Program-made: the position numbers and the translations under genes | Assembly: GCA_950295325.1 (NCBI GenBank) | Contig: OX485804.1 | Coordinates: 51,634,429 to 51,698,428 of the forward strand | DNA from: Polytrichum commune | Lineage: Eukaryota; Streptophyta; Polytrichopsida; Polytrichales; Polytrichaceae | Direction of reading: 5' to 3' | Length of the DNA stretch: 64,000 bases | In this document: piece after piece, positions 24,163 through 60,778 of the stretch | Numbering within the stretch: the stretch's first letter is position 1 | Layout of the letters: each line of letters opens with the position of its first letter | Notes under the pieces: model-generated | What the model was told of the DNA's origin: nothing | What the model saw: only the letters and a program-made list of their open reading frames with translations | Databases searched by the model: none

Positions 24163-24167
24163 GTCTT

Positions 24168-25144: not shown

Positions 25145-25149
25145 GTCTT

Positions 25150-33369: not shown

Positions 33370-35566
33370 ATGGGCAGAAAAAAGGAGATACCACATATTC
33401 AATATCCAAGTGAAGGTCCTATTCATTACCAAGATTTGATATGGACTCAAGGGATGAGACGGGGTTCAAAGGACTCCTCTATTTGTACAGTGATGACGGC
33501 CTATATTTTGTGGGAAAGAATAAACGACTTTATCGAAGGACAAGTCATGGACGATGGTTCTTCAGTTGAATGGGCCAAGGAAGATAGCAAGGAGAACAAG
33601 AAAGAGCTCAAACGCATACAACTGACTTCATCTATTGTTCAAACATGGTATGTAATTTTATTTTTTGTTTGTTTGTTTACCATTTAGTACTCCATTGAAG
33701 GAAAAATATATTTATGGTTTTACAATTGAAACTGAAACAAACTACTTGTATTTTTTTAGGTTTTATTGTCCTTATGGAAAAGAAGATCACCGATTCGATC
33801 CTAAGCATAAAAAAAAAAAAAAGGATGTTTAGCACGATTTGCTGTAAGGCAATTGCAACTATATCCTCATATTGGTGAGGTTATCTACTACCATAGTGAG
33901 CATACTAGGGAGAATGGTGAAGTTGCACATGGAGTAATGGATCCCGATTCAATAGCAAGGAGAAGTGAGGTAGCTCCTCGAATATCTGAAGAGTTGAAGA
34001 CATGGCTTATTAAGCGTTTGGATGAGGGACTCACGGCTAGACAAGTCTTTGAAGAACATAAAAAGATATGGTATGAAGGTTGGACAAAAAATAGGAAACA
34101 TTCAAAAGACAACTCTTTACTTCTTAAGCATGTTCGTTACTATGAGTATCAAAGGAAAAAAAGTATTTGGTACAGGCACAAAAATGCGTTGGTGAGTGTG
34201 AATATGTAGAAATTGGAGAATCCTAATGTGGTCTTCTACTATCAAAATGGTGACGCTACTGGAGGTGTTCCTTTCACCATTGGTATTCAAATTCCATGGC
34301 AAAAGACAACTCTTTTGAAATATGGAAAAGATGGATGCATTTCTATGGACGCAACTTTTGGTACAAATGATTTGATGTATCATTTGTTTACTCTGGTGGT
34401 TTTTGATGAGTGGCACAACAGAATTCCAATTGTATGGGTTATTACTTCACGACAAAAAGAAGATGATATTTATGATTGGCTATGGGCTCTAAAGTTGTTT
34501 GTCAACAACGAGGACTTAGATTGGAAACCATCATGCTTCATTGTAGATGATGCAATACAAGAACGAGAGACAATCAAGTAAGTATGTCATTGCTAATTTT
34601 TCTTTTACATTTAATATTTTTGCATTTAAGATACAATATTCTATTGGTTGACAATAACATTACAATATTGATTTTGTAGGAGGGTATGGAATGATGCAAA
34701 AATTTATTTATGTGCATTCCATGTTTTGAAGAATTGGAAAGAAAAGTGTACACAAAGAATATTGAGTGACAAATTTGCGAAGTGGGAAGTATTTTGGGAA
34801 ATGCAACAAGTTCTCTACCTTAGCATTGAATACAAAGAAACGGAGTAGTATTTTATTGAACGTGCTAAGAATGCTATGAATAAGATATTTGAAGAGTATA
34901 ATGTACCCGCCATTAAGACATATTTTGAAAAACACTACGCCAAGATATATGGTAAGTCACTCTAACATCTTCATTTTCAAAAGTTATATTTGTATATGAA
35001 AAATTTTGCTATATTTTATTTTATTTTTGTCTTATATATATTTCAAGTTCTAATCATTAAATTGTTTATCCTATGTAGAATTATGGTTGGTTGGTTTGCG
35101 TCGCTTACCTCATGCAAATCAAGATACAAACAACATTATTGAGTCTTACCATGGTACTCTAAAGAGATGGCTTACTGAATTCACAAGAGGTGCGTCGGGA
35201 AGAAGATTGGATTGGTTAGTGTGGCGTTTGACAACATCTATTGTCTCTCACTACATGTACATCGAAGAACAGAAGTTCAAAGGCTTCATTCCAAACAAAA
35301 AAGTTGAAGCAATTGTGGGCAAGGGTATTGAGAAAGCCTGTAATATTCCCATTCATGATGTATTACAACCTACATCTTTGGACAATCGATGGAAAGTGAA
35401 GTCTTCAAACCCTACAATTCTTACTCAATGGTACTTTTTTAGAAGTAATCCATTTGTAGACTATGCTTGTTGTTCTTGTGAACATGTATTGAGAGGCAAT
35501 TTTTGTAAACATCAGATTGCTATTCTTTTAAAGTTTTTGCCCGATTGCCGTGAGAGCTCTATATAA
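33370..35566 (+). pseudogene. MULE transposase with SWIM zinc finger, broken
   Basis: Exons 33370-33647, 33760-34577, 34680-34951 and 35079-35566 join in phase at GT-AG sites. Exon 2 has the MULE catalytic segment CISMDATFGTND, HLFTLVVFDEWHNRIPIVWV and the CAFHVLKNW helix. Exon 4 has NIIESYHGTLKRWL and a SWIM finger (CSC...CKH in ACCSCEHVLRGNFCKH). Breaks: a 14-base A run (33809-33822) out of frame by one base, TAG at 34207-34209, and TAG at 34846-34848. The coding sense continues beyond 35566 in another frame (YGTQRGGLEALCLFSKPHEI), so a further shift is likely. The enzyme would cut and paste the element in the nucleus; this copy cannot make it. Confidence 0.88.
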
Positions 35567-36152
35567 GAATATTGTGGAACTTACTATGGTACTCAGCGTG
35601 GGGGCTTGGAGGCTTTGTGTTTATTTTCAAAGCCACATGAGATTAGCGATTTTGAAGAAGAATTGGATGAAGACACATGTGGACATAGATGCAGAGAAGA
35701 AGAAAAAAAATAGTGATACTGATGATGAAGAAATTGAAGATACAATGGCAGGTCCTACACAAGAAGGAGTTGCATTGAGGACGAAACAACTTTTAGAGGG
35801 GATACAAGAAGAGTGTTTTAGTGGAGGAATGTTGTTGATGCAACATACAAATGCAATTTTGGAGCGGCTACATACTGATGTGAGAAATTTACGAAGATCA
35901 AATGTCATTGATTCTCTCCATCCAAATGTACATTTTGAAATCAGATATCACTTCAAAATCTATCAAATGGATTAGAGACCATATGGAGATCTATATAGAG
36001 AGGAAACAAAAAAGAACAAGAAGAACTAGGGGTGAATAATATAGTATACATACTAGACGCTTGAGATCATATATATATTGAATGCATTTTTTGATAGACA
36101 TATTTATGATTACCATTCAAATTTAATTATTTTGAGTATATTCAAACAAGTT

Positions 36153-42363: not shown

Positions 42364-44049
42364 TTTGTTCCATTCTATCTATTACGTTACATGAAATGTA
42401 ACATTGGTGACTTGTAACATTAGGCTATATTACATATGAAGCTCAATGTAACACTAGTGTTAGTAAACCGATGTGATTTATGCATGTTGTAGATTCCACA
42501 CCTAAGCGATTTGAGAGAGTGCAAAGTTTGCATAGTTGGTTGCTACAAGTTCTTGCAAACATCAAGAGCAGGATCAAGCTTGAGGACAACCGCCTTCTTA
42601 CCAATTACATGGTGGACATCTTCACCACCAATGCATTGTGAGGGTAGAATTGGTATGTCTCTTTCACTTTCTTGTTGGAGTGATAGCGCACATCTTGATC
42701 AATGAGGAAAAGATCACGTGTGAACCCTTTTTGTCCGTCCATGATTTCCTTAACATGAAGCCGATGCAGTGCCATGATTTGGAAAACTGTTGGATTCAAA
42801 TCCATTTTCTTAACAACCCAAATCTTGATATTCTTGGGGGTGCAAGCACAGTAAAGTGAACAACTCTTGATCCCTACCTAGTGTTTAGTGAAAGTGATTC
42901 AAAACTATACACTAACTTTAAATTATGAAGACAAATATCATAAACATTTAAAAAAAGACTGATATACAAAGCCAAGCAAATTATGATGAAAAAAATATTC
43001 CAAAAAAACTCTACATATTTTAGAAGATGATGCAAGTGGTATGCAAGTAGGTGATATTGAACAAGTGACTGTTTAAAATTTGTTTAAAGTATGATAGAAT
43101 TATATCAAATTAATGGCTTTCCACAAAATTTTGTAATGATGCCCTAAATTAGATAATTAATTCAAGGAATATGAAAGAAAATTCCAACTTCAAAATAGTT
43201 AAGGTCATGAAATCTATGTCCAAAACCAGACTCAACCGTTTGCTTTTGAGCATCACTTTTAATGATAAGTATTGAAGATCTCAACTTGATTTTCAACATT
43301 TGAGTATTCAACACAACATAAAGATCATCATGAAAAGAAATTCAATTTAAAGAATGCTTTGCTACTATTTTTAGGCCTTTGACAAAATAAGTTATGATTT
43401 TAGTATACCGGAGAATTTTTTTGGTCCACTTTACCATGCTTGCACCCTTGGACAATTGCACTGCGAATGCACTCCTGTCACATGGTCTCTCTTTGCCATG
43501 ATGGACATGAAGGACATAACACTATATTCGTTAAATTGAGACTTTCTCTAGTCTCAAATTAATATATGGATCAAACAACATTCCGTGTTCCGAAACTATA
43601 TTGCGAACAATCTCAAATATATTATATGTTCTAATATCCCAAATCTATGGGGTGTGGACATAAGCACATATGGTAGAGCACTCAACACCAACTTCATCAA
43701 CAAAAACACTTTGGGTAGAGCACTCCAAACTAGTTTCACCCAAGAAACATATAAAATGATTTCTATTATTAGCATGGTCAATAAAATATAGACATTGCAA
43801 CATACAAAGTACATGCAATAAATGCATTTTTCTTCAATGGAAAATTTAGTCCCAAACTTAATAAAAAAAATGAACTTCACAACTGTATTGAAATATAGTA
43901 AATGGATATTCATCCAACCCCAAACAATATAGCATTCGCAAGTTCTACCCAAACTTTGCCCCAAGTTTGAGGAGCACACATATGAGTAATATATATTCGT
44001 CGAATTACATATTACACTATAATCATGCTAACACAATCCTACCAACTTC
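42364..44049. other. Intergenic, nothing recognised
   Basis: AT-rich DNA with short frames only. A short imperfect duplication of 'ggtagagcactc' occurs near 43672 and 43714. Confidence 0.5.
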
Positions 44050-47000
44050 TCATTCAACGTGGGTTGCTTCTTCTGCGATCCGAGCAAGGTTGTCTTTTGC
44101 AAAAGTTATGTACTTTTGAGGGATGGACACTGATCCACTATGATTTTTCCGTGGTTTCCATGCTATGAATATGGAATCTGTATCTACCCAAGATGGACCA
44201 TGCTCAGAATCCACCTTCCACCGAAAGTTAGGGTTTGTATCCCAGCCTGTATAATGCCGAACAACATCTTCATTCCGTGCTGTCGGTCGGTAGTACTCTA
44301 CTTGTATTTGTCGAAAATGAGGGCTGGAAGTTACAAAATTTGGTTTGGACAAGCTCTTGCCACCCACACTGGCTTTGCATATGTCTCGTCTCCAGGACGC
44401 AAAATGAGCATATAACCTTCATGACAATCCACTGCAATGCGGAAAGATGGTGGCGGACGACTACTAGCAGGTCCCACGTAATGGTCGTCCACATCAAACT
44501 CCTCTCGAACCTCTCCATTTCCCAAAAGACTAGCCTCCGAAACTTGTACGTTGACACGTGTTTGTGGCCAAAACCCATGCCTTAAAGTAAGGGGTGTATC
44601 TTGATGAAGGTTTGCCAAAGCGCCACGAACACGTGTCCAATATTGTATCCAACTTCCGTAACGAAGCCAACACGATCCACCAACATCTGCTACCCTCAAA
44701 CTCTCCCAATATTGTATGAAGCCTGATATGCCTTTACAAATGTCCTCCAAATTCTTCATGGGTATTGGTTTACAAGGCTTAGGCTCTCCGTCAGGCAACA
44801 TCGTCCTTCCCTCCCCATCAACACGCCATACAAGGAGACCCTCCGGCGGGCTCCAGTCTTGTGACGTGCACAACAACTTGTATTGCATGGCGGGGACACC
44901 ATCGTCACGCACGTAGAACCGAAATTGTTGTGCCTTCGTATGTCCGATCAATCGGTGAGCTCCGCTTCGAATATACGGTTCTATAAATGCCTTGAAGTCT
45001 GGAACCTCCTCGATCATATGGGAGATGACGGGAATATTCTCCAAATCCATGTACGACTTCATCAACAATGGGATTGTTGGAAAATCCTCCTCGCGCAACT
45101 TCATGCTCCACCGCCTAAAAGACGCATCAATATCATCGTGCGTGTGGCCTACCAATAGAAAGGACACAAAAACCTCCTTGAAAATGCCTTTCGCAACCAA
45201 CAACGACCAATATGCAAAAACATATCTACTTTTATTGTCCTTCGCACAATTGTCCAATTGGACACGCAGAGTTGGGGGCAAATTCTTCGCAATCACATCT
45301 TCACTTGGTGGCTCCGGCAATGAGTGCACGCATACATCTCTTCCATCCAAGACCGCTTCATATAGAGGTGTTGATCCCGAGTTTTCAAATAACAATCTTG
45401 ATGAATAGGACGGCGGTTTTTCCAAATCACGTAAAAGCTTTGCAAATGATCCTATCGTGTGGTTTGAATCCGCCGGATACAAATCAAGAGCATAATGAGC
45501 ATACTTGACATCACCATGCCCATGTGCAATCATTCCTGCAAAGACAACCCAATGGTTTAATATTCAACTATAACACCAAAAAATTCACATGATGTATATG
45601 TTTGGCCCCAAGTACAAACCTAAACGCACAAATTTGTGTTTAGGTAATGCAATGCAATGCAATTGTTATCAAAATCACCTGTAACCGAAACAGGAAGCTT
45701 AAAAAGGCCGTCCGTGGCTTTGATTCGATTTGCAAAACATGAAGAGGTTGTTTTGGCATGGCCCATTTTGTCATGGATGATTGTAAGGACCTCCAAAGGC
45801 CTTGAGATGGACAAAGCTCTATTTGTGTAGTAATCATTACGGTGTGCCTCTTGCATGTTCACATGCTTGAAATAGTTCATTTGATGTGCGGCATAGGACT
45901 CTGTCCCCATCGTGTGTGCATCTCGAAGGCGTTTCAACTTCTCGCATTTGGAACAACGGGCAAATTTGTCACCTCGTCTTTTTGTGATGTATTCGCTAAA
46001 GTGAGATTTTTTTTATTGCACTCAGTTTCGACAACGAAATAGGGTCTAGCCCGGCCTTCTCGCCAACTACGTTTACGTCCAACAATATGTCTTTCCATTT
46101 CGTGCCTGTAGGAAGAACCTTCTCCACAACCTTTTCACCGGTTGAGAGTGTGCGTGTTTTGTGCAGCATTGCATCGGCAAGGGGGACAATGATGGTTGCC
46201 AGAGTGGCTGTTGCTTGTCTCGTTGCTTCCCTTGGTTTCTTTAAGCCCGTATTCCCATGGTGACGGGACCGGCGTCCTTCCTTGGCATACGCGGCTTGTC
46301 TATAAAATTCCGCTTTCGACATACCATGAATGGTGTACCATGCCGTACAACACACGTCTATGCTCTCAAGGGTGATGACCTTGCGACCCGCTCCGTTCAT
46401 ATGTATCGCCCTATGGACATCAAGCTTTTTGGTGGATCTTAGACGGAAATCTCCAAGCCACATTTCCTCGCGGATGGCCTTCAATTTATCCCTTGGGAAC
46501 AATTGGCAACAACGATGTACACAACAATCCTTTGTGGCAACTTTTCTAATAGACTCCTCACAGAGCAACCTTTGACGTTTACACTCATTTGCAGACGGAG
46601 TAGGACGTGCCAATGTATCGTACTTCCGTAGGCCTTTGCGTGGCCGAATGTTTGCTTGGAGCTCTTGTTGGATTTCGATGTGTCGTCGCTCATGCTCATG
46701 CAAATTAACCCCATCAATTGTCACATTCCTCAACGGCCACCTTCGCAACGAGAACCTATGAGTTGGATTCACTTCGGAATGTACGAATGATTCCAATATA
46801 ACAACTCCAACGTCCTCGGTGCCAAGGGGGTTTTCATCAATGCAATCTTGTGGATGTGTGTTACGACAAATACCCTCCGCCACAGCAACTCCACTGTCAT
46901 TAACAAGTACCACATCCAAATTCACCCATGAAGCTCGTGAAAGCCCAACACATTCCACAGTGGGGCAAGAAGGGGCAGATGGCGAAGGACTCCCCAAATG

Positions 47001-47123
47001 ACCTTCATTTGCACTGTCACCAAAACTATCCTCCCCAACAATGTCTAGGTCATCCCCAGACGAAAAATGGGAGTTGCCCATGTCATCAGAGAAGGCATCC
47101 CCTCTTCCACCAACTCCCTCCAT
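44050..47123 (-). pseudogene. DUF7869-type (transposase-like) gene with two frameshifts
   Basis: Exon 1 is 45679-47123 and exon 2 is 44050-45535, joined in phase (VSVTG|MIAHGHGDV). The start ATG follows an acceptor-like tgtgtag, which suggests an upstream 5' intron. After an acidic low-complexity N-terminus come a Cys-rich block (KDCCVHRCCQLF, VCCTAWYTIHGMS), GEKVVEKVLPTGTKWKDI, a CSKC knuckle and TIIHDKMGHAKT. The core is VQLDNCAKDNKSRYVFAYWS and FLLVGHTHDDIDASF, with the Asp and Glu/Asp positions of an RNase H-like fold, as in DUF7869 proteins. Frame breaks: eight-base A run on the coding strand (46007-46014 plus T run), where the sense continues one base shifted (SHFSEYITKRRGDKFARC), and near 44353, where it shifts again into VTSSPHFRQIQVEYYRPTAR. 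Both are single-base indels in or near short homopolymers. The role as a mobile-element recombinase is inferred, not shown. Confidence 0.85.
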
Positions 47124-47312
47124 TTCGCCTACACACATGCACATGAAACCTCAACAAACATGCACACCATGTAAGGGTTCAAAAGAATCAAATATCGAAA
47201 AATACAAGACATCATGATAAATGGGGACACCGAGGATAAAGACATTTGCAACACAACTACAATGTGAACTCCCAATACTTTGCGCAAGTTCCAAAAAAAA
47301 TTTTGGGAGGGG

Positions 47313-47915
47313 GTTTGGGTCGACCGACCCAAACCTTCTCATGGTCAACCTCTAGCCGCCCAAGCTGGGGTTGGGGTTTGGGTCGGTCGACCCAAACATT
47401 ATATGTCAAGGGGTTTTGGTCAAGCCCGCCCACACTGGTCGAGGGGTTTGGGTCGACCGACCCAAACCTGATCAGGGTCAGGCTGAACCCTCCCACACTA
47501 GTGGAGGGGTTTGGGTCGACTGACCCAAACCTGGTAAGGGTCAGGCTGAAACCCACCCACACTAGTGGAGGGGTTTCGGTCGACCGACCCAAACCTGGCA
47601 AAGGTCATGCTGAACCCGCCCACACTAGTGGAGGGGTTTGGGTCGACCGACCCAAACCTGGTAAGGGTCAGGCTGAAACCCGCCCACACTACTGGAGGGG
47701 TTTCGGTCGACCGACCCAAACCTGTGTAAGGGTCAGGCTGAAACCTGCCCACACTAGTGGAGGGGTTTCGGTCGACCGACCCAAACCTGGTAAGGGTCAG
47801 GATGAAACCCGCCCACACTAGTGGAGGGGTTTCGGTCGACCGATCCAAACCTGTGTAAGGGTCAGGCTGAAACCCGCCCACACTAGTGGAGGGGTTTCGG
47901 TCGACCGACCCAAAC
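47313..47915. repeat. Palindrome array 1: ten copies at ~64-bp spacing
   Basis: A 22-bp inverted repeat, GTTTGGGTCG-NN-CGACCCAAAC (several copies GTTTCGG), starts at 47313, 47376, 47456, 47509, 47573, 47636, 47700, 47765, 47829 and 47894. The centre is mostly AC, once GT. The spacers are also repeats ('tggtaagggtcaggctgaa', then 'cccacactagtggag'). The array lies directly upstream of the DUF7869-type gene. Long frames through it on both strands only reflect the repeat period. Confidence 0.97.
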
Positions 47916-50900
47916 CTGATAAGAGTCACACTGAAACCCTCAAAATCCGGCGGATAATGCGGCGGATAATCCGAAATCCCATATGATTTTGAGTTCATTG
48001 CAAAGTTCCCGGTGGGCTTCCATGCTGTGGATAGGTGCTCATGAACTTGCATGCTGTGGATAAGTGCTAATGAACGGCAGCATGCACGAACCTTGAAGTA
48101 TAGCTCCGACTAAGAGTTCTCTCTACGAATTCAAGAGTGGGAGAAGAGCAAAAAAGGACAGACTTTTGGGGGGTGCATCCCTTTATACTATCCACCTCCG
48201 TTTCTCCGACTTCCTCATTGGATGCCTTTCCCGCCTTGTTCTCCTGCATAGGTTTTTTCAAACCTCCTGACATAATTCCCCGTTTTCTGTTTATAGTAGA
48301 AAATGCGCATCTATCAATGCCCCTCTCATACCCCAGCCGTCATATGACTTAGTCTATGATATTTAATCTTTTTTTTTTTTGTCTTGTGTGGATATGACAT
48401 ACGCCGTTGGGAGGAAGGGTGGCGGCCACATTAATTTTTTCAAGTATCATCAAGGTATATTTTAACCAATATGTAGACCCAAACACAACTCCATTCAATG
48501 CTTTCAAGTGTAAACATATTTAGGTGGGGTTTGGGCCATTTGGAGGCTGCAATTATGAGAGAGTTTCCAAGGCTTGAGGCCATTGTCATCATGAATAGAA
48601 TTATTTATTTGTCTCCCCTAAACCCTAAACCCTAGAACCTTGCTCTATTATCTCACATGCAAGAGTGGCAATGACGAACGTATGTGGACGTTGTTAAGGG
48701 GATACTAACTACCAATGTCCCTTTTTAGTTCAATCTTTTAATGTTACTTGAATCCATCCTCAAGTTCACTTCAAGTTTACTAATGTGTGAGAGCAAAACA
48801 TCGAAGATTGGACCCTAAACCCTTATAACATCCACAACATGAAATACGCATTGACTACATACAAAACCAATTAGGATATCATGTTTAAACGTCCCATATA
48901 TCATATTAACATGATGAAGATTGTATTTACTATGACCTTCCGATTGGACTCTTCTTCATATTATGCAAACAATATCTGTTATATCTTCCTCCATTATCTA
49001 ATACACGTGGAGAGAACAATGAATAACAACATGATGTTGTGCTTCTCCGATTTACTTTTACATCACATTCCATATATGAAATACATCATGAACGATGGTT
49101 TATTAGCGACTAATATGTGATTCCCTAAAGTGAGCGAAACATCCAAAGTTGGACCCCTAGCCCCTATTAACATCCACAATATTTCATGTTATTTGAATAA
49201 ACACACGACCAATCAATATATCGCGTTTAAACGTCTCAAATAACAAATTAACATAATCAAGATCGTCTTCACTATAACCTTCCTATAAGACTCTTCTCAC
49301 GAGTAAGACAATGTTATACATTGACATTGGATAGATTAATATGTTATAACCATATCTCCTAAACCCTAAACCCTAAACACCAAATGTAGTTGTGGTCCAC
49401 TGATGCCCCCATATACAAACAACATCTAATTTATCTTGCGTCATCATCTAATATACATGGAGGGAACAATGAATAACAACATGATTGCTTGAATGGTTTC
49501 ATTTCATGTTGCGCTTATCCGATTTACTCTTATATCATAATCTATATATTAAATATATCGTGAACCATGGTTTATTGGCGAAGTCATCAAAGTCACGATC
49601 TCAGGGATGTACTTAAAACTTGCGCATGTTAGTATTTTCAAATAAGGATCATGCATTTCAAAACCCTTACAAAATGCAGTTGGGGAAGGTATTCATTTAA
49701 TAGGCTCCACACTCACGTATTCTAAATTGTTCCACATGTTGGGGGGTGTGGGACCCTTTTTTTATTCATTCAATATCGTGTGAGTTGTTGGCATCATTGG
49801 TAAAGTCTAGATGTCAATGATTCCATCGTCAAATATCACGCAATTGTATGGTTTTCCTAACATGGTCAAACAAAAGAGAAACCAATGCCTTCAATGTGTT
49901 TGGAAAAGGGAGGGTATGGTGTCATGTATGTAGGGGTTAAGTAATAGTTTAGCATAAAGTTTTGTTGTAAGAATGCATTGGCTATATAAATGGTTAGTTT
50001 TGTAGAATAACACATTTTATGTAGACCCTTAGTGTACTCCAGAGATCAAGTTACATACTATTTAAGGGCTTTATGTTGGATGAACGAGAGGTGCACTTGT
50101 GCACTTCATAATTATGTCTTGCTATAACTTTTTACCGACATTATCGTTTTTAACCAACTAAGTCAGATCATAATCTTTCGTGTGCATACTACCTACTTAT
50201 GTTATTTGGATGAAAAAAATACTTTCTATTAAATGTTACAGAAATGTGTAGCTCCGAATGGTAACCCACACTAATTAGAGAAAACAGTCTAGTGGATTAG
50301 GAAATGATCACAAGCACAAGGGATTGAAATCTTGAGAAACTTGTACAAAAGCTTTGGTGGGGTGCGAGGTGGGGGTGGGGGCCATTTTATACATCATAGT
50401 AGAGTTATACATGAAGTCGAGGATCAAACTTAGGTTTGAGAATAGAACCATAAAGTCATCCAATTATTTCAAGGGCTTAGAACCATATTTATTGTAAGAC
50501 CACAACAACATAGTCTAATGTTTGGGTCGTCCTACCTAAACCATCACAAATTAACGAATAAAGTGATTAATACAAATGTAGCCTAAAAAATAAGTGACTT
50601 AGCCTATAAAATTTTGAAAGTGTAGGACAAAGAGCCTATGCACAATTTAAGAACATAGGATATCAACCTATGTGATAAAAAACATGTAGGAAATTTTACA
50701 TACAATTTGTTTAAAATAGAGGATTTTGGCCATTCATCCTTCTTCAAATTCGGAAATTAGTTGGCCTAAGTACATATCTTTAGGCTATATCTTAGGAAGA
50801 ATAGAGGTTGAATCAGAAGATGGTGAGGACTTTCACCCTTGAACTCATTTGAATTTAAGCAACCTTTCATAACTTATAATCAACGCTTTAAAAAACAGAT

Positions 50901-51130
50901 GGTTAATCCTTGGCCTTCAAACGTGGTGAAAGGCTTAGCCAGGTTCAATTCCTGCCAAGGATACGACTTAGTACTCAAATTTTGAATGCAATTGGCGGGT
51001 AACTTAAAGGCTCAAAAGGTTTTCAACTTACAAAAATTTGATATTGTAGTATGCAACCTATGCCATGAGGGAAATTGCCTATGCCTTTTTAAAGAGGTAG
51101 GCCCGCTAAGGGTTTAGAGTCGGGCTTTCG
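47916..51130. other. Intergenic between the divergent genes
   Basis: No gene is recognised. Telomere-type CCCTAAA runs occur near 48617 and 49358. A decayed copy of the palindrome (gtttgggtcgtcctacctaaa and one more base) starts at 50522. A 68-codon minus-strand frame at 48067-48273 could be a leader exon of the DUF7869-type gene, but nothing confirms it. Confidence 0.45.
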
Positions 51131-52065
51131 AATTTAGGGTTCCCTATAGCCCTATTCCCGTGGGTGCCCTAATCTTGTGGGCACCCTATTCGCGCGGTTG
51201 GGGGCCAATTCCCGAGGCAAACAAAACCCCAACCGTCACAAAATTTCATTCTTTCTCTCTTACTCTCCGCGCCAAGCATACGCTCCGCGCCTCGCTTGGA
51301 AGCGCCGCCTCTCCTGAAGCGCCGCTTTCGCGAAGCGGCGTGGCGATTCAGGCGCATGTGTAGCTTTTAGTTTGCTTTCTCCCGCGTTTTGCTTGTATTT
51401 CATTCTTCTATATCCCTCCTTTCTCTTGCTCTACAACAGAATAGCACTTGTTCAACCTTGGAAGTTAGGAAGAGTTTAGAAAAAACCAGAAACACACGGA
51501 GGAAGGTTTTAGGGCGTGAGGGTGAAGGAAAGAGTTGGAAGAGTTGTTGGAAGAGTGTTGGAAGAGTGTTGGAAGAGAGTTGGAAGAGTGTCCAGGAGTT
51601 CTTGTGAGATTCAGGAGTGTTTGTGAGGTGCACGTTTTGTGAGTTTGTGTTGTTTTAGGTTTGTTTGATAGATTCAGCAGTTTTTTGTGAGATTCAGGAG
51701 TGGTTATATCTTTGAAGTTTTGGGAGTTTGTGTTGTTTAAGGAGTGCTTGAGAGATTTCGAATTCGTTTAAGAGGTATAGTAGTTGTGTGTGAGATTCAG
51801 TAGTTGGTTCAGAGGTTCAGGAATTCGTTCAGAGATTCAGGAGTTTGTTGAGAGATTCAAGAGTTGTTTGAGAGAATTTATAATTGTTTGGAAGCCACAG
51901 AACCAGATCTACTCCAAAGTGTCTGCAACACATCTTTCAAAGGTATTGTGTTTTCTTATATCCACAATGTGAGATGTTTAATTCATGGTTTGTAGCATAC
52001 ACAACGCATAAGCAATGTATATGCTTCATGCCAAGTTTAAAATATATAATAAAATAATACTATTT
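51131..52065 (+). promoter_or_regulatory. Probable promoter and 5' leader of the four-exon gene
   Basis: A GC-rich patch (51160-51365) is followed by purine-rich minisatellites: ttggaagag-type units (51535-51590) and 'gagattcaggag' units (51605-51870). A donor-like aaag|gtattg occurs at 51942. Together with the acceptor ttacag at 52711-52716, it would make a 5' intron containing palindrome array 2. This is inference from splice words and layout. Confidence 0.4.
51535..51590 (+). repeat. TTGGAAGAG minisatellite
   Basis: About six units of gttggaagag(t) in tandem, some with an extra ag or tgt, within the likely 5' leader region. Confidence 0.8.
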
Positions 52066-52404
52066 GGGGAGACGACCCAAACACAACCTCTTGTTTGGGT
52101 CGATCGACCCAAACACAACCACTTGTTTGGGTCGATCGACCCAAACACATCTTTTTGTTTGGGTCGATCGACCCAAACACAGCCTCTTGTTTGGGTCGGT
52201 CGACCCAAACACAAGTTATTGTTTGGGTCGTCCGACCTAAACATGTCCTCATTTTGGGACCCTGACCCCTAAAGAAAGCCACATGTCTGTGAACCTAAAC
52301 ACAAAAGAAAGCCTCATGTTTGGGTCGTTCGACCCAAACATGGCCTCATGATTGGGAACCTAAACCCAAAACAAAGCCTCATGTTTGGGTCGACCGACCC
52401 AAAC
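52066..52404. repeat. Palindrome array 2: exact 32-bp spacing, then decaying
   Basis: After a half copy (52066-52083), full copies start at 52093, 52125, 52157, 52189 and 52221, exactly 32 bp apart, with centres AT, AT, AT, GT and TC. Two more follow at 52318 (TT) and 52383 (AC), with eroded units between. Two further copies with arm mismatches lie at 52577-52598 and 52668-52689. All sit just before the first coding exon of the plus-strand gene. Confidence 0.97.
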
Positions 52405-52716
52405 ACGACGTCTGAACAAGTAAAGTATCAAAAAATCCTTCAGATGTCCATAATTGAAATTGATGAAATCATGTACATACACATATATTATACTAAATAC
52501 ACACAAACTCTCTAACGAGGAACCATCATAGGTCTATTTCAGCACACAAGGAGCACGAGCCACCAAGTGTTCAAGGTTTCGGTCGATCGACCCAAACCTT
52601 GAATTCGGGCTGGTCAATAAAATACATTTGTTCCATTTCCACCAAATGTTAAATGCATTGTCGACTACTTTGGGTCGATCGACCGAAACTAATAGTTTTA
52701 ATTTCTGGACTTACAG

Positions 52717-55700
52717 ATGGCCCCCAAGAAGAGACCTGGAGAAAGGTTCTTTATGCTCGCGCCAGACGTAATATGGTAGGAGTATGAAACCCCCCAGGAC
52801 GACTCATACGTGCCCAAGGATGGGCTTGTCCTTGCGTGGTCAGTTCAGGTTGTAAAGGGCTCCCAGTTCAAGCTCCTGTTCGTGGTCAAAGTAGGGACCC
52901 ACGAGAACCACACTTGGACAACGTTGACAGGATGGGAGGTTGCGTCCGTCCAAGCCCTCGGGGATTACGTGGACGTAATTCTCGAGAACTCCGCCGTGCA
53001 GAACGCCCACATGTTCATGCACCAGTTCTCCGAGTCATTCGACACTATATACGCCAAGGAGTCATGCGTGGAGCCTGAAACAATTAAACCGGAGACAATT
53101 TTCATAGATGGCAATGTAACCAACACGAAGGTTGCAAGTAGGTTTACAAAATTGAAACAGGCCATCACGGTCCTCAACAAGGCGCTGCAAAGTAAAGCCA
53201 AAACGCAGAAGCCTGTGAGGCGTAAGGCAACGGCGGAAGAAGGCGCAGGGTCGTCCAGACCCCAAACTGTGAGGATACCGTGTCCGGTCCCTGCAGACTC
53301 CAGACGGCCTAGCACTACAGGAACGCCGGCTGACAGCGAAACGCCCACACCGTCCGGAAGCCGGCAGACGACCCCGTCGAAGAGGGCGAGAGAGTCCTCC
53401 GTCATGACCACCGAGCCAGTTTCCCCGGAGCTGCGGATGCCGAAACCTGGCCAAGAGGTGGATGCAGGCGAGATACAGAAAATCAATGATAACTTCGAGA
53501 CGAAGTGCCTGCATTGCATGGGCAGGGACTTCAAGTTCGAGGTGAACATTGCACAGTGCCACCTTGCGCCACCTGAGAAGTGTGTCCGAGCCAAGGAGGA
53601 CGCCTACGTCGACTGGATGGTCGCTCAGATCTTGGGAGGGCAATTCAAAGACGACAGGCAGACAATTGTTGTCATGCTGCAAGGGCTGAAGAGAATGCCG
53701 ACGCCTGAAATGTGGCCGACAATATGCAAAGGCGACTTCTGGCTGATTGACGGCCAGCACAGTGTGGAGGCGTCCAAAAAAATTCAGCTGATGACCGAGT
53801 GGGACGACCCCAACAACCAAAAGGAGAAGCTAAAGGTGTGGAAGGCATTGGTGGTTTGGTCTGACAACGAGACCGTACTAACCGACATCTCACGCTTCTT
53901 CAACATGGAAAACAAGAAGAGGGCGTACCAGACATCCTGGATTCGGAACATCATGGCCTCGAAGGAGGTGTGGGAGTTTTACGGCAGGCCTCCCAAGGAA
54001 AGGGAGAATGCTAAAGACAAGAACCCAAAATGGGAGGTGAGTATGTTTGGATCGATCGACCCAAACTCTTAAATTGTTTACCTTTTTTATTCAGGTTTAT
54101 AGTTTGGGTCGATCGACCCAAACTGTAACATTGCTTATTTTTTCTCGTGAGATTTATAGTTTGGGTCGATCGACCCAAACTCTTACATTCGCAGTTTTCT
54201 AACGTGTGTTATTTACTTCATGTGCAGGACTTCAAATACCAGATGATCAACAAATTATCCTCGATTGACAACGTTTCCCACAAGCAGAAGAAGTACAACG
54301 AGCTAAGAGGAGAAATTTATTTAATCACAGTGTCTGACTCCGTGTGGGGGAGATGGAAGAGTGTTTTCGAGAAACACGAGACGGGGGACCTCATGGATCC
54401 CGACACCGGCATGCTCTTCAATTAGACTGCGCGCTTCAAGCAGATGAAGCCTCTGGTGAGGGAGTTCTTCAGGGCTCTTCAAGGTCTCTCGGAGACAGAG
54501 ATGGAAAAGGTGGCGTCCCACATCCTTCACGTACAGCCGACGGCGAAGAGATGTTGGGTCCACCCGAAGATCGTATTCATCAAGCCCAAAATCTTCGTCC
54601 CTTCATGCTACACCATGAAGGAATGGACGGAGAATAGGAAAAAGAAGACGACCATCGTCCAGGAACTGCACAAGCTGGTGCCGGAAAGGAAGCTCATAGT
54701 GGATGGAGAGGTCGACGAGGCGCACTGGAGGGCATTCAAAGCCGACTACAAGTTCACCAGTGCGTCAATGGCGGCACTCATCAGGGAGGCGGGAGATGAC
54801 TTCCTGAAGTCCAAGCTTGTGAAGGGGGGGAGGAACCGGGCGCTTCCCGAACACTCCGCGCGTGCCTTCTCCAACTTTATAAAGGAGAAGAAGATCGTCA
54901 GCTTCGAGGGCGACGCCTACTTCAACTTGGTCATCCTCGAGCCTCTCAAGATCCAAGGATGGCCGGGCTCTGATGCCAGGAAGGCTATCAGGACAAAAGC
55001 CGGGGACCGCTTCCCCTTCGGAATGATAGACTTCAGGAACATCCCTGGAGCCTCATTCGAGGGGACAATGAGCACCCCATTCTACGAGCCGTTCTTCACG
55101 AAGTTTGTGGATTACGGCAGCCCCAAATTTAGGGAGGTCGACGTCTGGCTGTGGATTGTCAAGGACAGGAGGGCAGAGCAGGTGTACGAGATCGTGCGGA
55201 AATTGCAGCCAGAGTACGCCGTCTCAAAATCTCACTACGTTGCTGCACCGGCGGAGGGGGCGTACAGCACGCTGAAAGACAAGAAGACGAAGATCGTCAA
55301 CGTGCTGTGCTTGTACTTTGTGTACAAAGCTGAGCTGCTTAAGGTGCCAAACCATCCCATAGCCAGGATGGAGAAGCTCTTCCAAGTCCAAGAAGGGTTG
55401 GGCACCAGCAGGAGCTTGTACGACGAGGCGAAGTACGCCAACTACCCCGCGGATGAGCTGCGCATGGAGTTCTATCTGCGGATGATGAGGACCCTCACAA
55501 AGAGAGGGGACTGCATCTTCAACGTCTTCGGGGGTTCCAAACCGGTTTTCGCAGCCATGGTAAGCAAATAACCTGAAGGAACTATATGGACGGTTTGGGT
55601 CGAGCGACCCAAACTAACTATTCTTATTTTGTTTTGGATGTCACTTTCCATTATTTGTTCATTTGGTGATACTAATAGTATTGATTTTGATTGTGCAGAT

Positions 55701-58494
55701 GTCTGGGTTGAACATCTACTCCTATGTGGAGGATGCCGATGTTCAATTCTATAGGACCCAGAAGGCGCTGGCCAAGAGAATGGACATCCTCGACTGGATA
55801 CCCGGATCCTACGTCGAAGAGATCGTCGAGGGGGGCGAGAATCCTTTGGATATGGCGAGGCGAATCAACCCGGGTGAATTTGCCATGCGAGCCCCCGTTC
55901 AATTGCCAGAGCCGCTCATCGGGTTGCATCCGGGCAATCCCTCTATGGGAGCAGGTGGCGAGGTTGCGGAGGAGGGGGAGGAAGAGGAGGAGGAGGAAGC
56001 AGAGAAAGTGGAAGGGGAGGTGGAGGAAGGGGCAATAGGATTCACTCAAGAATCCGAGGCCCCTCAGCGGAAGAAGGCCATGCGGGCTGCAACGCCGCAG
56101 AGCAAGCTAGTACCCGTCCTAACGGTGGCCGACGCGAAGGACATGTATTCGAGGGACGCGACGGCCACCTTCAGGGAGCGGCGAATGCTGAAGGGGAAGA
56201 AGTTGTACGGGGACTATGCGGTGGAGGAGACAATCGCCATAAGCTCCGAGGACGACGACGACATGGAGCTCGCGAAGAGGCTGAGGTCGGATCCTGCCTC
56301 CCCCACAGCGTTCGCCGGGATGGTGAGGGTGAAACCCGAGGTCCTCACCGTGGAGGAGGCCAACGTGAAGATGCTCCGGGACGAGGAGCAACGCGTCCGA
56401 TTGCAAAAGGCCGCCGCTGAGGAGCCCTCGGTCCGCAACGAAGTCGCGGAGTTGAGGGCTCTCCTGTTGGAGCAGGAGCGGCAAAGGGCGATGGCCCCAC
56501 CTCCGTCCCAAGCGGACCTGATCACGCAAGTGATCCAGGGCATGCTGGCGCAGGGATTGGTGATGGCTCCCCCGAGTTCATTCCCTCATTTGCCCGCAGG
56601 CTTCCCTCCACAGGATATCCGCCCGCGGCCGGCGCCGCAGCAGTCCTTCAGCTTCGCGCATTTGCTGCAGCCGCACGCCCGCCCTTACGCGCCCGTCCAG
56701 TAGGTGGACGACCCCAACCTTTGGCGCGTCCCAGGAGCTTCCAGCCCGTTGGCACCCCCGCTGCTCCGGCCTCCCATCCTCTTGCCCCCACACCACCAGC
56801 GGGACGACCCCCACATGTTTGGGTCGTCCGACCCAAACAGTGCCGACGTTGCAGCGTCCCAGAGCGACGCTCGCCAAGCAGCAGGGTTTGGGTCGGCCGA
56901 CCCAAACCCCGTCCCCGATCAGACCCCGGTGGACGAGCCCATGCTAGATGTTGAAGGCCCGCAAGGGCCTGGTGATACCTCTACTCCTAACCCAGTCGAT
57001 GAACCAATGCATGATGCGCATGCGGAGGTTGGGTTGGGAGAAAGGCCTGACAGTCAGCCTTTGCAGGAGCAGGTTGCGGCTGACGTCGTCGTCGGAGGCG
57101 GCGGTGACAGAGGTGGGGCAGCGCACGCGGTGACGGCATCCACGTCGTCAAGGCACGACCAAGGCAAGGTAATGCACTGACCCCACTCAGTTTGGGTCGG
57201 TCGACCCAAACTCCATGGGTCTTTGTCTTCTTGCCTTGGTCGTGTCCCCTAACTACCCTAAACTCACGGACACGTCGCCCCCCCGGCACTCGCGCCCTTT
57301 GCCACTTCCCCCCGACCATTCGTTCGTCCACATACCCCCCGGCTTGCGACGAAGTCTTCATCACGGCGGCCCGTCTCTTCAATTTTTGCTAGATGTAGAA
57401 GTAGGCTAGTTTGAACGCATCGTTCAACGCGGCTCCCCCCAATCAAGATGTACATAGAGCATTGTATACAATATAATCACCATTTTTTACTCCTATATAC
57501 TCGTATCCTGTGTTTGAATGTATGTTGTATGCTCTTGCCTATCTTGTGTCCCTTGTTGCACCCCCTCCAAAATGAATCAAATGGTTTTGTGTTTGCACCG
57601 AGAACACTCGTTTCTTTAATGCTTCGTTTGGACATAGCATGACATAAGTCGCCCACCGTTTTCTCTCGATCGTATCCGCAGGGCTCGGAGCATAGCGTAG
57701 CGGCTCCCCGACGCTCTTCTCCAAGGAGCGAAGAGGGCAGCGCGGCGGCACCCCCGGTTTTACCCGCCCCGCCCCCGCGGCCGAAGAAACGATTCCTGGT
57801 GTTAGACCTGAACGGGGTCCTCGTCCAATGCGTTCATTGCCCGAGGACCCCCACGGTGCCCTTTTGCAAGCCCGAGGACGCGAATTACGACGGCCCGCCC
57901 ACGTTCATAAAGAGCAAGCTAGTTCACCTCCGCCCGTGGCTTCGAACCTTCCTCCATATGGCCCAACAACGATGGTGGGTGGTCGTTTGGAGCTCCATGA
58001 CGGCCGAGAACACCAATGCCGTCGTGGAGTTCATCTTCAAGGGCATCGAGCCCCCGTGCATAGTCCTAGCACAGGAAGCCTGTAGAATATTGTACACACC
58101 GGACGGCAAAGTCGTCAAAAAACCAAACAACCCCGCTTCCCCCCAATACCTCAAGGTCTTGAAGCCCATTTTTTGGGACCAGTGGCCGTCCTTGATAGGC
58201 GTCCCCTACGACGTCCGTCCCACCCGCGAGAACACGCTCATGGTGGACGACAGCGCCGCAAAGAACATGTTGAACCTGACGGCCAACCTCATAGTTTGCC
58301 CTACCTGGACGGTCGAGAAGGTCCGGGACCGATTTTTGTTAGACCTTGGTAAATACCTCCAGGCGCTCTGCGGAAGCGGACTGCCCGTAAACAATTTTGT
58401 TAGGAACAATCCGATAGGCGAGAGATACTTGGATCCACGAGACCATTTGTACAGAGAGTTGTTATCTCACGCGAAATTTAACAAGCTCATTTGA
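52717..58494 (+). CDS. Four-exon gene: DGQH/ParB-like segment plus FCP1-like HAD domain, three in-frame TAG
   Basis: Exons 52717-54036, 54228-55559, 55699-57168 and 57682-58494, all joined in phase 0 at GT-AG sites; about 1,644 codons. Exon 1 has a lysine- and proline-rich linker and GDFWLIDGQHSVEASKKI, resembling the ParB-like nuclease box (weak call). Exon 2 is a conserved-looking helical region (KFREVDVWLWIVKDRRAEQV). Exon 3 starts MSGLNIYSYVEDADVQFY, then an acidic tract and a Q/P-rich tail. Exon 4 is an FCP1/NLI-type HAD domain: FLVLDLNGVLVQ (the second catalytic Asp of DxD is Asn, as in a known plant subset), VVVWSSMTAENT, NTLMVDDSAAKN, ending HAKFNKLI. TAG codons at 52777, 54423 and 56701 interrupt it, with no in-frame TAA or TGA. 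The exons are much GC-richer than the surroundings. Introns carry the 22-bp palindrome. The product is unknown; the gene is either recently decayed or read through. Confidence 0.72.
54045..54180. repeat. Three palindromes at exact 57-bp spacing in intron 1
   Basis: Copies start at 54045, 54102 and 54159, each with centre AT (the first with one arm mismatch), starting only 9 bp after the exon 1 boundary. They fill most of the 191-bp intron. Confidence 0.96.
55593..55614. repeat. Single palindrome in intron 2, centre AG
   Basis: Arms are perfect (GTTTGGGTCG and CGACCCAAAC) around AG, within the 139-bp intron between exons 2 and 3. Confidence 0.95.
56817..56907. repeat. Two palindromes inside coding exon 3
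   Basis: Copies at 56817-56838 (centre TC) and 56886-56907 (centre GC), both with perfect arms, read in frame as MFGSSDPNS and GFGSADPNP. They lie after the third TAG, in a proline-rich stretch. Confidence 0.95.
57190..57211. repeat. Single palindrome in intron 3, centre GT
   Basis: Perfect arms around GT, 22 bp past the exon 3 donor. The remaining ~470 bp of the intron hold no second intact copy. Confidence 0.95.
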
Positions 58495-58501
58495 GACACT
58501 A

Positions 58502-58539
58502 CGTGTGTTTGTATGTATGTGTGTGTGTGTGTGTGTGTG
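58502..58539 (+). repeat. (TG)n microsatellite in the 3' flank
   Basis: TGTGTTTGTATGTATG followed by a pure TG run, starting 8 bp after the stop of the FCP1-like exon. Confidence 0.9.
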
Positions 58540-58649
58540 GGCGCGCCCTTTCATTTTGTGTAGTATATGCTTCATATGTATCTTGATTTTCACGCGCTCT
58601 ATCAAACCCTCCTCCCTTGGATTTTGTTTCGTTTCCTTTTTTGCGCCAG

Positions 58650-59202
58650 CGTTTGGAGCCCTCGATTGACATCGTCAGCGAGTCAGACTTGGGGAGCTTC
58701 TTCTACGAGACCGTCTACGACGCTGCGTCGACCATTGACTACTCCAAGGAGCCTCTTGACGCCGGCGTCGTCGATAGCCCCCCACCCAAGCAAATCTTCC
58801 GGCATTCTCCATCCCCGTCGCCGCTCAAGGGCATAAATCGCAAATGCGTCCGGACATCCCCCTCTCCGCCCGGCGGCAGTAGTACACCTCAACGGCGGCT
58901 GCGGATGGACGCTCGGCCAACGAAGAGTGGAACCCTTCCTATTCCTTTGCGGGACGCATTGCCCCTCCTCGCCGACTCCGACGGGAACGCCCCCGGTGAC
59001 AAGGTGAGCCCCCCCCCCCCCCAAAACCTGGTTAACCGCGCATTACAATAATTTTGCACTTAAAAAATGAACGTGTGACACGTTTGGGTCTTCCTCCCTA
59101 AACTAACACATGTGGTCTTGCATTGACGCGTTGCAGGTTGCTCCCACCCGTAAACCTATGCGTCTAGTGCGTCCATCGAGTTCGAGCGTATGTACGCCAT
59201 GA
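58650..59202 (+). CDS. Small two-exon coding segment, unidentified
   Basis: Exon 58650-59003 follows an acceptor-like ttgcgccag and reads RLEPSIDIVSESDLGSFFYE, then a Ser/Pro/Arg-rich stretch to GNAPGDK. A donor gtgag is followed at once by a C run. Exon 59137-59202 follows gcgttgcag and reads VAPTRKPMRLVRPSSSSVCT, ending with TGA. Phase is 0 at the join. The codon use is as GC-rich as in the upstream gene. The start is not identified: it could be a separate gene with an upstream leader, or a former or alternative 3' part of the four-exon gene. A decayed palindrome (gtttgggtcttcctccctaaa) lies in the intron at 59081. No family is recognised. Confidence 0.5.
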
Positions 59203-59468
59203 CCAGAAATGCGAGACAATCCACTTCATCGTATTTGAATTCTTCGACGTATATTTCGGGCGGCCGACGGACTCCAAAATGTGTTATGGATGGCGGTCAC
59301 CCCAAGAATGGCTATAGTCGCGGGGCGGAGATTTTCAGGAATGTTGAAGCAATGCGAGCAAAAGAAGCTGCAGCAAAAGAAAAAGAGGCAAAAGAAAAAG
59401 AGGCAAAAGAAAAAAAAACAAAAGAAAATGAAGCAAAAGAAAAAGAGGTAGTATCCGAGGCTAGATAG
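59190..59468 (+). CDS. Short Lys/Glu-rich reading frame
   Basis: A 92-codon ATG frame overlapping the end of the preceding segment by 13 bases. The N-terminal half (SSYLNSSTYISGGRRTPKC) is unremarkable. The C-terminal third is a run of KEKEA-type units encoded by a 15-bp minisatellite (gaggcaaaagaaaaa, 59356-59451), predicted to be a charged helix. It could be chance coding across the minisatellite. Confidence 0.25.
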   Translation: MYAMTRNARQSTSSYLNSSTYISGGRRTPKCVMDGGHPKNGYSRGAEIFRNVEAMRAKEAAAKEKEAKEKEAKEKKTKENEAKEKEVVSEAR

Positions 59469-59650
59469 GCCATAGTAGGCGTAGGGTTTTGGGCCATAGG
59501 CAAGAACATTTTGGGTCGCACTATCCAATGGATGTGTGGTGTTAGCATGATATGCATTTTACATGCCACACTTTGTATGTTTTTTTTTGCAATAATATAA
59601 GTTAGACATGATTTCCCCTTCCATATGGTCTAAGGTTTGGAGTGCCTTAT

Positions 59651-59957
59651 TGTGTGCATTAATATGAATGTTTTAAGATTTCCCCTTCAATAAGATCTAT
59701 GGTTTGGAGTGCCCTACCTAAACCATATTCATACAAGCTCTCATATTTTGTGTGCATTAATATGAATGTTTTAAGATTTTCCCTTCAATAAGATCTATGG
59801 TTTGGATTGCCCTACCTAAACCATATTCATACAAGCTCTCATATTTTGTGTGCATTAATATGAATGTTTTAAGATTTTCCCTTCAATAAGATCTATGGTT
59901 TGGATTGCCCTACCTAAACCATATTCATACAAACTCTCATATTTTGTGTGCATTAAT
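59651..59957 (+). repeat. 98-bp tandem repeat, three copies, with decayed palindromes
   Basis: The word tgtgtgcattaatat recurs at 59651, 59749, 59847 and 59945, exactly 98 bp apart. Each unit contains ggtttgga(g/t)tgccctacc followed by taaacc, which keeps the outer arms of the 22-bp palindrome (GTTTGG...CCTAAAC) but not the CpG-rich core. A further partial unit lies at 60458-60530. Confidence 0.93.
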
Positions 59958-60778
59958 ATCCCAGGGTGTGCACTATTCATTAAAACCAAGCATCACGTGC
60001 GTGCATGCCCCTTATTAAAATACCCCTGTATACATTTTATTTTTGCTAAAATCAAGCAATATACTTACAAATCTCATTGCTTCAAAATACATTTCCATAC
60101 ATACACAAGGGTCCAAAAACAAATACAGAAATTGTATATAACATGTGTACAAATGTTTGGAAATGCAAAAATATGGCCCTATTATATGTATAATATCAAA
60201 TCATGGATTTTTAGTTATAAAGTCGTTACTTAGTGGATGAAAAAACACATGATTCTTGGTCCAGGTCTAACTTGAACGCGTAAACGCGTAAATGCGTACT
60301 TTACATATATTTTTCTATAGCCTCATGTATATCTACTTCTTGCTTAATAGCAATATGTCTCTTGTACGTACATTTTGTACATGCTTGTTTTAAATAATAC
60401 CCCTTTTGTGCACCCACGTGTATAAATACAGTACTTGAACAGTGCACTCCCTGGGATTAATATGAATGTTTTAAGATGTCCCCTTCAATTTGGTCTAAGG
60501 TTTCGATTGCCCACCCTAAACCATCACAAATATGAGTTATTAATGGGGTTCTTGGTCTAAACACCCGCTTCAAAGTGTTCGCATCTTACAACTTTCACCA
60601 ATATGTGTTCCATTTATCCTTGTTCTTATTTCTATGAATGTCTCAAAATGCCCAAAAAGTCTCAATTTAACGAATATAGTGTTACATACTGGTTGCAATG
60701 TTTCACTTGAATGAGACATATTAATGCAATGTGGCGGTGCAAATAGAGCACTTTCACTGTGAACTCAACTTTGCATCC

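Follow-up and report, generated by a model that had tools for sequence, protein, structure and literature searches.

Organisation of the locus

Analysis of a 64-kb stretch of Polytrichum commune DNA, referred to here as the window, revealed a complete DNA transposon, bounded by terminal inverted repeats and flanked by target duplications of fixed length (Table 1). The window copy is flanked by the 4-bp duplication ACAT at positions 43514-43517 and 60684-60687, and 4-bp duplications were present at 15 of 15 copies checked (the window copy and 14 others); in the 28-bp inverted ends, three mismatches were seen at one end of one copy. The genome contains 682 exact cores of the element ends. Two genes are arranged as a divergent pair, a DUF7869 transposase candidate and a ParB-fold/FCP1-like gene. 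The initial annotation had proposed a link of the palindromes described below with DUF7869-type and FCP1-fusion loci; this link is correct, since a single transposon harbours both genes together with the palindrome arrays.

Table 1. Features of the transposon, with positions in the window.
Feature	Position	Strand	Basis and remarks
Whole DNA transposon, 17,166 bp	43518..60683		Ends common to four copies; 28-bp terminal inverted repeats AACACTATATTCGTTAAATTGAGACTTT
Left terminal inverted repeat	43518..43545	+	28 bp, shared ends
DUF7869 gene, candidate DDE transposase	44050..47150	-	PF25273, E 2.5e-42 on frame 44331-45563
64-bp tandem array, 10 palindromes, immediately upstream of DUF7869 gene	47313..47939		Pattern and tandem-repeat match
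Isolated palindrome, 2 mismatches, between the two genes	50520..50541		Pattern match
Nine palindromes, partly 32-bp tandem, upstream of ATG	52093..52689		Read as 5' UTR intron, splice sites by eye
Exon 1 of ParB-fold gene	52717..54036	+	One in-frame stop in window copy
ParB/sulfiredoxin-fold domain, DGQHSVEA motif	53521..53931	+	Model residues 248-384
Intron, three palindromes at 54045, 54102, 54159	54037..54227	+	Pattern match and spliced reading
Exon 2	54228..55559	+	One in-frame stop in window copy; methylase-like motifs by eye
Intron, one palindrome at 55593	55560..55698	+	Pattern match and spliced reading
Exon 3	55699..57168	+	One in-frame stop in window copy
Two coding-sequence palindromes	56817..56907	+	In frame as FGSxDPN in window copy
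Intron, one palindrome at 57190	57169..57679	+	Pattern match and spliced reading
Last coding exon read, NIF/FCP1-like phosphatase domain	57680..58494	+	PF03031, E 2.8e-13
98-bp tandem repeats, 4-mismatch palindrome, near right end	59650..59959		Tandem-repeat match and by eye
Right terminal inverted repeat	60656..60683	-	28 bp, shared ends

When the eight larger open frames of the element were scanned with Pfam, only DUF7869 and NIF were recognised. The PF25273 profile scored 145.1 bits against a curated cut-off of 26, and the predicted structure of the DUF7869 homologue P0053 resembles DDE transposases, which makes the DUF7869 protein a candidate DDE transposase. DUF7869 was not named in the open PMC literature searched.

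The structural model of exon 1 of the second gene best matches ParB, Noc and KorB and shows the ParB/sulfiredoxin fold; Foldseek alone gave no match under E 0.04 for this model. The nucleotide motif of ParB proteins is of the GERRxRA type, with the arginine motif GERR. Its place, assigned by eye in the alignment, is occupied by DGQHSVEA, and the replacement of GERR by DGQHS makes nucleotide clamping as in bacterial ParB doubtful. In the model, the ParB-fold domain is followed by helices, the last of which has low confidence, and no DNA-reading domain was recognised in the protein. Pfam assigned no family to the frames of exons 1-3, the ParB part included, and relatives of exon 1 were found in neither the prokaryote nor the viral collections. 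A methylase reading of exons 2 and 3, based on motifs seen by eye, found no support from any profile, family or PDB entry. The phosphatase domain carries DLNGV where phosphatases of the NIF/FCP1 type usually have DxDx(T/V). No copy of the ParB-type gene read end to end was open throughout: three in-frame stops interrupt it in the window copy, and frameshifts or stops occur in the other spliced copies.

The palindrome family

Matches to GTTTGGGTCG-NN-CGACCCAAAC with up to three mismatches numbered 27 in the window, 16 of them exact, and all lie between 47313 and 57211; the rest of the window contained none, and neither did 100 dinucleotide shuffles. The initial annotation had counted at least two dozen copies and seen no intact one elsewhere in the window, and both statements hold. 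Allowing five mismatches raises the count in the element to 33. Decayed versions had been traced to 60.5 kb, a fair description because the 98-bp tandem units at 59.65-59.96 kb contain a version with four mismatches (counted by eye). The proposed 13-kb domain, in contrast, is not a chromosomal one, as the palindromes sit within the 17.2-kb transposon and its wider bounds. When four copies of the element were inspected with their flanks, no palindrome with up to three mismatches was found beyond the transposon, which also speaks against an independent self-spreading mini-element, as do the 100 listed genomic places discussed below. The palindromes belong to the fixed make-up of a large cut-and-paste transposon that is multicopy and has recently been mobile.

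A count across the genome gave 9,231 exact palindromes, compared with none in the reversed-sequence control. All seven centres named earlier for the variable central dinucleotide were found, but the centre is not free: pyrimidine-purine steps occur in just 38 of the 9,231 exact copies, all of them CA/TG, and TA or CG in none. The arrays clearly expand and contract, with tandem units of 64 bp versus 78 bp upstream and of 57 versus 46-49 bp in intron 1. Unlike a satellite or simple repeat, which would form long, uniform tandem arrays away from genes, the copies read lie in transposons and have varying units. The genome also contains the palindrome families GGTGTCTCGGTACCGAGACACC and CCCTGTGCGTTAACGCACAGGG; GTTTCGGTCG was noted as a variant.

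A search of open PMC papers for the exact string GTTTGGGTCG gave titles that, among the matches listed, look unrelated, and no paper on the Polytrichum genome was found in this literature. The exact palindrome is absent from viral contigs, and scans of the sequence with Rfam (gathering scores) and for tRNAs gave no matches.

The palindrome arms are far better conserved than the surrounding ParB-type gene. Between subfamilies, the arms of the coding-sequence palindromes are 99% identical, compared with 77% at other exon positions (four copies). Preserved arms, flanks that are not preserved and a dyad that avoids pyrimidine-purine steps support the earlier proposal of selection on the arms as in a dimer-binding site. 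A comparison of CpG loss between palindromes and spacers within arrays (p 0.054) had too small a sample and was superseded by the exon comparison. Among 25 homologues with the intron tail, compared as protein sequences only, a peptide fitting the palindrome was present in 13, a variant in 6 and neither in 6. The palindrome guessed for the VSGDRPK homologues has no copy in this genome.

Proposed function of the palindromes

On balance, we favour the reading that the palindromes built into this mobile element are dimer-binding sites for a protein of its own, most likely the ParB-fold one, which would act in anti-silencing. Each palindrome would be bound by an element-encoded protein of two-fold symmetry, which, given about 30 sites per element, could coat the element's own copies. 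Such coating might free the promoters and introns of the element from silencing, or switch them on, for which the action of VANC on VANDAL elements serves as the model. New sites would be supplied by tandem duplication of spacer units.

The same palindrome is carried by an unrelated Mutator-like element, in 32-bp arrays with different spacers, located in an intron and an intergenic region. Comparing profiles of this element's protein and the ParB gene showed no significant relationship (probability 0.3); a ParB-like relative was suggested there by a single motif seen by eye. As the two elements share the palindrome without a significant protein relative, the common factor could be a host protein, such as a transcription factor or chromatin boundary factor, whose site was acquired by several transposon families for transcription or escape from silencing. 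We regard this as unlikely. All 100 palindrome places listed for the first 2.16 Mb of C1 (of the 9,231) lie, according to the loci read, within two kinds of transposon. That no ordinary host locus is among them would be unusual for a host-factor site; moreover, exact palindrome peptides accompany the ParB-type gene even in homologues as distant as 67% identity.

Somewhat less plausible still are sites for the DUF7869 transposase or an accessory factor, acting in transposition like the subterminal repeats that DNA transposons often have. The array adjoining the DUF7869 gene and the decayed versions near the right end would suit such a role, but the best-kept palindromes of the window copy are internal, placed in introns and coding sequence and separated from each end by about 3.5 kb or more, whereas it is those close to the right end that have decayed.

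A function as RNA, in which array hairpins or 22-bp duplexes feed or divert a small-RNA pathway, appears very improbable. A single palindrome was predicted to fold into a 9-bp hairpin (-13.2 kcal/mol), and four tandem palindromes pair mutually (-86.6 kcal/mol, z -17.1); hairpin folding is, however, a property of any DNA palindrome. This reading also leaves the single intron sites and the near-absence of pyrimidine-purine centres unexplained, and because a hairpin loop does not account for this avoidance at the dyad, a dimer-binding site is favoured. That the palindromes are functionless and kept by tandem duplication and gene conversion would fit the changing unit sizes of the arrays but can practically be dismissed, given the arm conservation and two exon 3 palindromes that stand singly, 69 bp apart in five of five copies.

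Extending the favoured reading of sites for the element's own protein, one can tentatively speculate that palindrome and ParB-fold protein together make up a portable cassette for self-marking, equivalent in eukaryotes to parS/ParB. Two or more unrelated superfamilies of moss transposons (DUF7869 and Mutator-like) might use it to coat themselves and withstand silencing; GGTGTCTCGGTACCGAGACACC and CCCTGTGCGTTAACGCACAGGG could then be the codes of sister systems.

Comparison with known systems

The VANDAL elements of Arabidopsis, with their VANC anti-silencing proteins, contain arrays of short motifs as fast-changing tandem repeats, both within accessory-gene introns and upstream of the transposase gene (PMC5735166); the moss element resembles them in being a multi-gene DNA transposon with motif arrays at both kinds of place. 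The VANC21 motif is the 9-base directional YAGTATTAY, whereas the moss site is a 22-bp palindrome. Furthermore, the moss accessory protein is a ParB-fold/FCP1-like fusion whose ParB part has no Pfam hit, and the element ends in inverted repeats with 4-bp duplications. By analogy, the architecture may be called VANDAL/VANC-like, but with an apparently different protein and a palindromic site.

As in bacterial ParB/parS, Noc and KorB, whose known sites measure 13-16 bp, a ParB-fold protein is encoded beside clusters of palindromic sites; unlike them, the moss protein resides in a eukaryotic transposon and has an altered arginine motif. ParB-methylase fusions of the Bce_0392 type are described in bacteria (PMC5512222), and the order of a ParB domain followed by methylase-like motifs (by eye in the moss protein) is similar. 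The moss methylase reading differs in lacking support from profiles or the PDB. In addition, DPPY, the usual methylase motif, is absent.

CACTA/En-Spm elements possess TnpA with many subterminal sites, usually 3-bp duplications and a transposase of the TNP2 family. The moss element shares a CACTA string two bases inside its end and a second protein with many proposed sites, but its ends read AACACTA, its duplications are 4 bp long, DUF7869 replaces the CACTA transposase and its best sites are internal rather than subterminal. Membership was rejected, as the scan of the eight open frames showed no CACTA transposase.

These results define a large plant transposon that has moved recently and carries both a DUF7869 transposase candidate and a DNA code that is conserved and can be counted. 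Docking sites for its own protein, which the palindromes probably are, would represent a new mode of self-marking for a plant transposon. Self-recognition by a transposon becomes testable with a short palindrome, a candidate binder, diverged copies and natural sites in the thousands. Should the ParB-fold protein bind, a eukaryotic transposon would have put a palindrome-binding fold of bacterial type to new use, and plants would have evolved anti-silencing through motif arrays at least twice.

Palindromes are ordered parts of a transposon

The initial annotation had taken palindrome A, a 22-bp palindrome of the form GTTTGGGTCG-NN-CGACCCAAAC, as the mark of a 13-kb domain. Shared boundaries, 28-bp inverted ends and 4-bp duplications instead make the palindromes parts of a transposon, the first element, which carries a gene pair and ordered palindrome sites. 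By BLAST, its left (~43517) and right (~60684) boundaries were common to the window and three of five other fetched regions. Its ends are inverted repeats AACACTATATTCGTTAAATTGAGACTTT, with 3 mismatches within the first 25 bp of one end in the C1:1174918 copy (C1 and C5 are contigs of the same genome). Duplications of ACAT flank the window copy, and AAGT, CCTT and TTAT flank three others; a fifth full copy (C1:32031646-32047678, 16,033 bp) has TTAG at each side. Ten additional end pairs, hand-picked from the core-match list by a spacing of 16.4-17.5 kb, all showed a 4-bp duplication, so that read off the flanks it was present in 15/15 copies checked.

The fifth copy matched the C1:610757 copy with 97.7-99.9% identity in long unique blocks and 94.9% in the final 0.6 kb; the family has therefore been mobile recently. 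The 23-bp core of the element end has 682 exact copies in the genome (408 Mb, 64 contigs; the window sits on a 70-Mb contig). Among the 91 ends on C1, neighbours within 60 kb face inward in 35 pairs (21 of them 14-20 kb long), the same way in 4 and outward in none. For exon 1 of the ParB-type gene the genome offers 1,120 candidate places; the best 100 were scored, and the matches shown from these had 87-100% identity. A Physcomitrium patens protein is 52% identical to the DUF7869 gene, the candidate DDE transposase; on this basis the genome is probably that of a moss.

At least two dozen palindromes had been reported at 47.3-57.2 kb, and pattern search confirmed 27 with ≤3 mismatches (47313-57211), 16 of them exact, with no match in shuffled window sequence. 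Their layout is identical in five of five full copies (see table), which contain 27, 40, 26, 36 and 32 palindromes at the same threshold; none lay in the flanks of the four copies fetched with flanks. Among copies, the upstream repeat unit measures either 64 or 78 bp and that of intron 1 either 57 or 46-49 bp; spacers are therefore turned over while the palindrome persists.

Palindromes of the first element and other features of the window and of fetched genome regions (L0xx)
Feature	Position	Context	Occurrence
Palindrome array	3.8 to 6.6 kb from left end	just upstream of DUF7869 gene	five full copies
Palindrome group		upstream of ParB-type start codon; reads as 5′ UTR intron	five full copies
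Palindrome groups		introns 1 and 2, ParB-type gene	five full copies
Palindrome pair		inside exon 3, ParB-type gene, 69 bp apart	five of five full copies
Single palindrome		intron 3, ParB-type gene	five full copies
Internally deleted copy	L051 (C5:1407801-1413800)	993-aa open frame joining exons 1 and 2; palindromes lost together with intron 1; 18 other palindromes (≤3 mismatches) kept in 6 kb	
496-bp insertion	window 59960-60455	right arm of first element	
NIF/FCP1-like domain	window 57796-58368	DLNGV at DxDx(T/V) position	
MULE transposase remnant	window 33811-35975	PF10551 on 34210-34581; SWIM-like C-terminus by eye	
Repeats, apparently another repeat or transposon family	window 24167-25145 and 29317-30296	74-97% identity	several C1 places
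Elements related to each other, cautiously Mutator-like	~C1:2151944-2164288; C1:433656-483275	second fragmented by insertions	
Palindrome CCCTGTGCGTTAACGCACAGGG	L018-L019 (C1:2157775-2160050)	in Mutator-like element with palindrome A	20 copies (≤3 mismatches)
Palindrome family GGTGTCTCGGTACCGAGACACC	467478-472086; L020-L023, L026, L027 (C1:432001-488000)	138-bp tandem units	28 copies (≤3 mismatches)

The 496-bp insertion has inverted ends CCCAGGGTGTGCACT and is predicted to be a hAT-like MITE because of its 8-bp duplication ATTAATAT. A 99% identical copy lies in C1:2104001-2134000, outside the element of that region.

Constraint on arms and centre

The palindrome arms are under strong constraint. 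In 142 aligned sites (≤4 mismatches, four copies) arm columns held 1.3-2.0 bits versus ≤0.55 bits in flank columns, with 0.33 and 0.51 bits at the two central positions; selection of these sites by pattern match favours the arms, and comparison of the ParB-type gene between two subfamilies is the fairer test. In this comparison, which covers that gene, the paired exon 3 sites had identical arm positions in 158/160 cases versus 12,551/16,296 at other exon positions, which upholds the proposed selection on the arms. CpG was kept in 16/16 cases in the exon 3 sites versus 945/1,420 other exon CpG columns, and intron identity was 0.86-0.95 inside palindrome columns (any copy having a site there) versus 0.50-0.64 outside.

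Between the window and two other-subfamily copies, the DUF7869 gene (84-97% identity) is better kept than the ParB-type gene (76-80%), and the latter is therefore either faster-changing or swapped by recombination. The window copy is apparently mosaic, its DUF7869 half being nearer to the C1:1174918 and C1:2112817 copies and its ParB half to the C1:610757 copy.

The centre had been described as variable. This is true of ten centres other than pyrimidine-purine (YR) observed across four elements (≤1 mismatch), but not of YR centres, which occur in 38 of the 9,231 exact genome copies, all as CA or TG and never as TA or CG; as these copies share descent, they represent fewer independent events. 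The scarcity fits a bound DNA dyad recognised via its shape. On C1, 6/7 YR-centred copies are located between paired element ends, and the seventh (C1:68320440) is 15 kb from the closest end among those listed.

Palindrome peptides in exon 1 homologues

Of 45 exon 1 homologues, 30 reach the exon end under the pattern used, 25 of them with a tail of at least nine residues. In the protein sequences, from which all tail evidence comes, 19/25 tails fit a peptide encoded by palindrome A in one of three frames, either exactly (13; e.g. VWVDRPK, FGSIDPN, LGRSTQT) or as variants (six; LGCSTQT, VWAGRPK, VSVARPK and three times VSGDRPK). Shuffled tails gave 0/5,000 matches, and the tails of P0004, P0005, P0007, P0014, P0026 and P0045 contained no such peptide. 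Exact peptides also occur in P0021 and P0023, outside the tail pattern; the lowest-identity homologue with one is P0028 (67% to the window exon).

A second host of palindrome A

The previously suggested link with DUF7869 and FCP1-fusion loci holds, both genes being part of the first element. Among 100 matches listed from the first 2.16 Mb of C1, a small fraction of the genome, 77 lie in three first-kind elements and 23 in two related elements of another kind, a split which depends on the reading of nested loci. In the latter two, palindrome A forms 32-bp arrays whose spacers are unlike those of the first element; these arrays occupy an intron of a minus-strand gene as well as the region separating two divergent genes. 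The two elements also contain a further palindrome, CCCTGTGCGTTAACGCACAGGG, repeated in units of 64 bp. With caution, they may be called Mutator-like. Both end in long inverted repeats with 9-bp duplications (AGTTGGCAT; TGGATGGAG, by eye), and the C-terminus of their minus-strand protein matches SWIM weakly, below the cut-off (E 0.076). Their plus-strand gene encodes WDGNHRFFA, resembling a ParB/Srx motif, and a methylase-like VVDLTCSTGAS...FEGD; profile comparison of its protein with that of the first element was not significant.

Putative mechanism

Active phosphatases of the NIF/FCP1-like type carry DxDx(T/V); the DLNGV found in its place suggests that this domain of the ParB-type gene may be inactive. 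A methylase-like reading of exons 2-3 is a lead only. Membership of the first element in CACTA, or in a true ParB partition system, is not claimed, because a defining feature of each was looked for and not found.

A dimeric protein encoded by the element, most likely the ParB-fold one, would bind the palindromes, and this binding would maintain expression of the element. The closest working model for such a predicted protein-palindrome system is VANC on VANDAL elements, taken as a likeness to the first element and not as a claim of membership in VANC. PMC5735166 places VANDAL motif arrays in VANC21 and VANB21 introns and upstream of VANA21, and PMC10398659 describes VANC binding as stripping silent marks.
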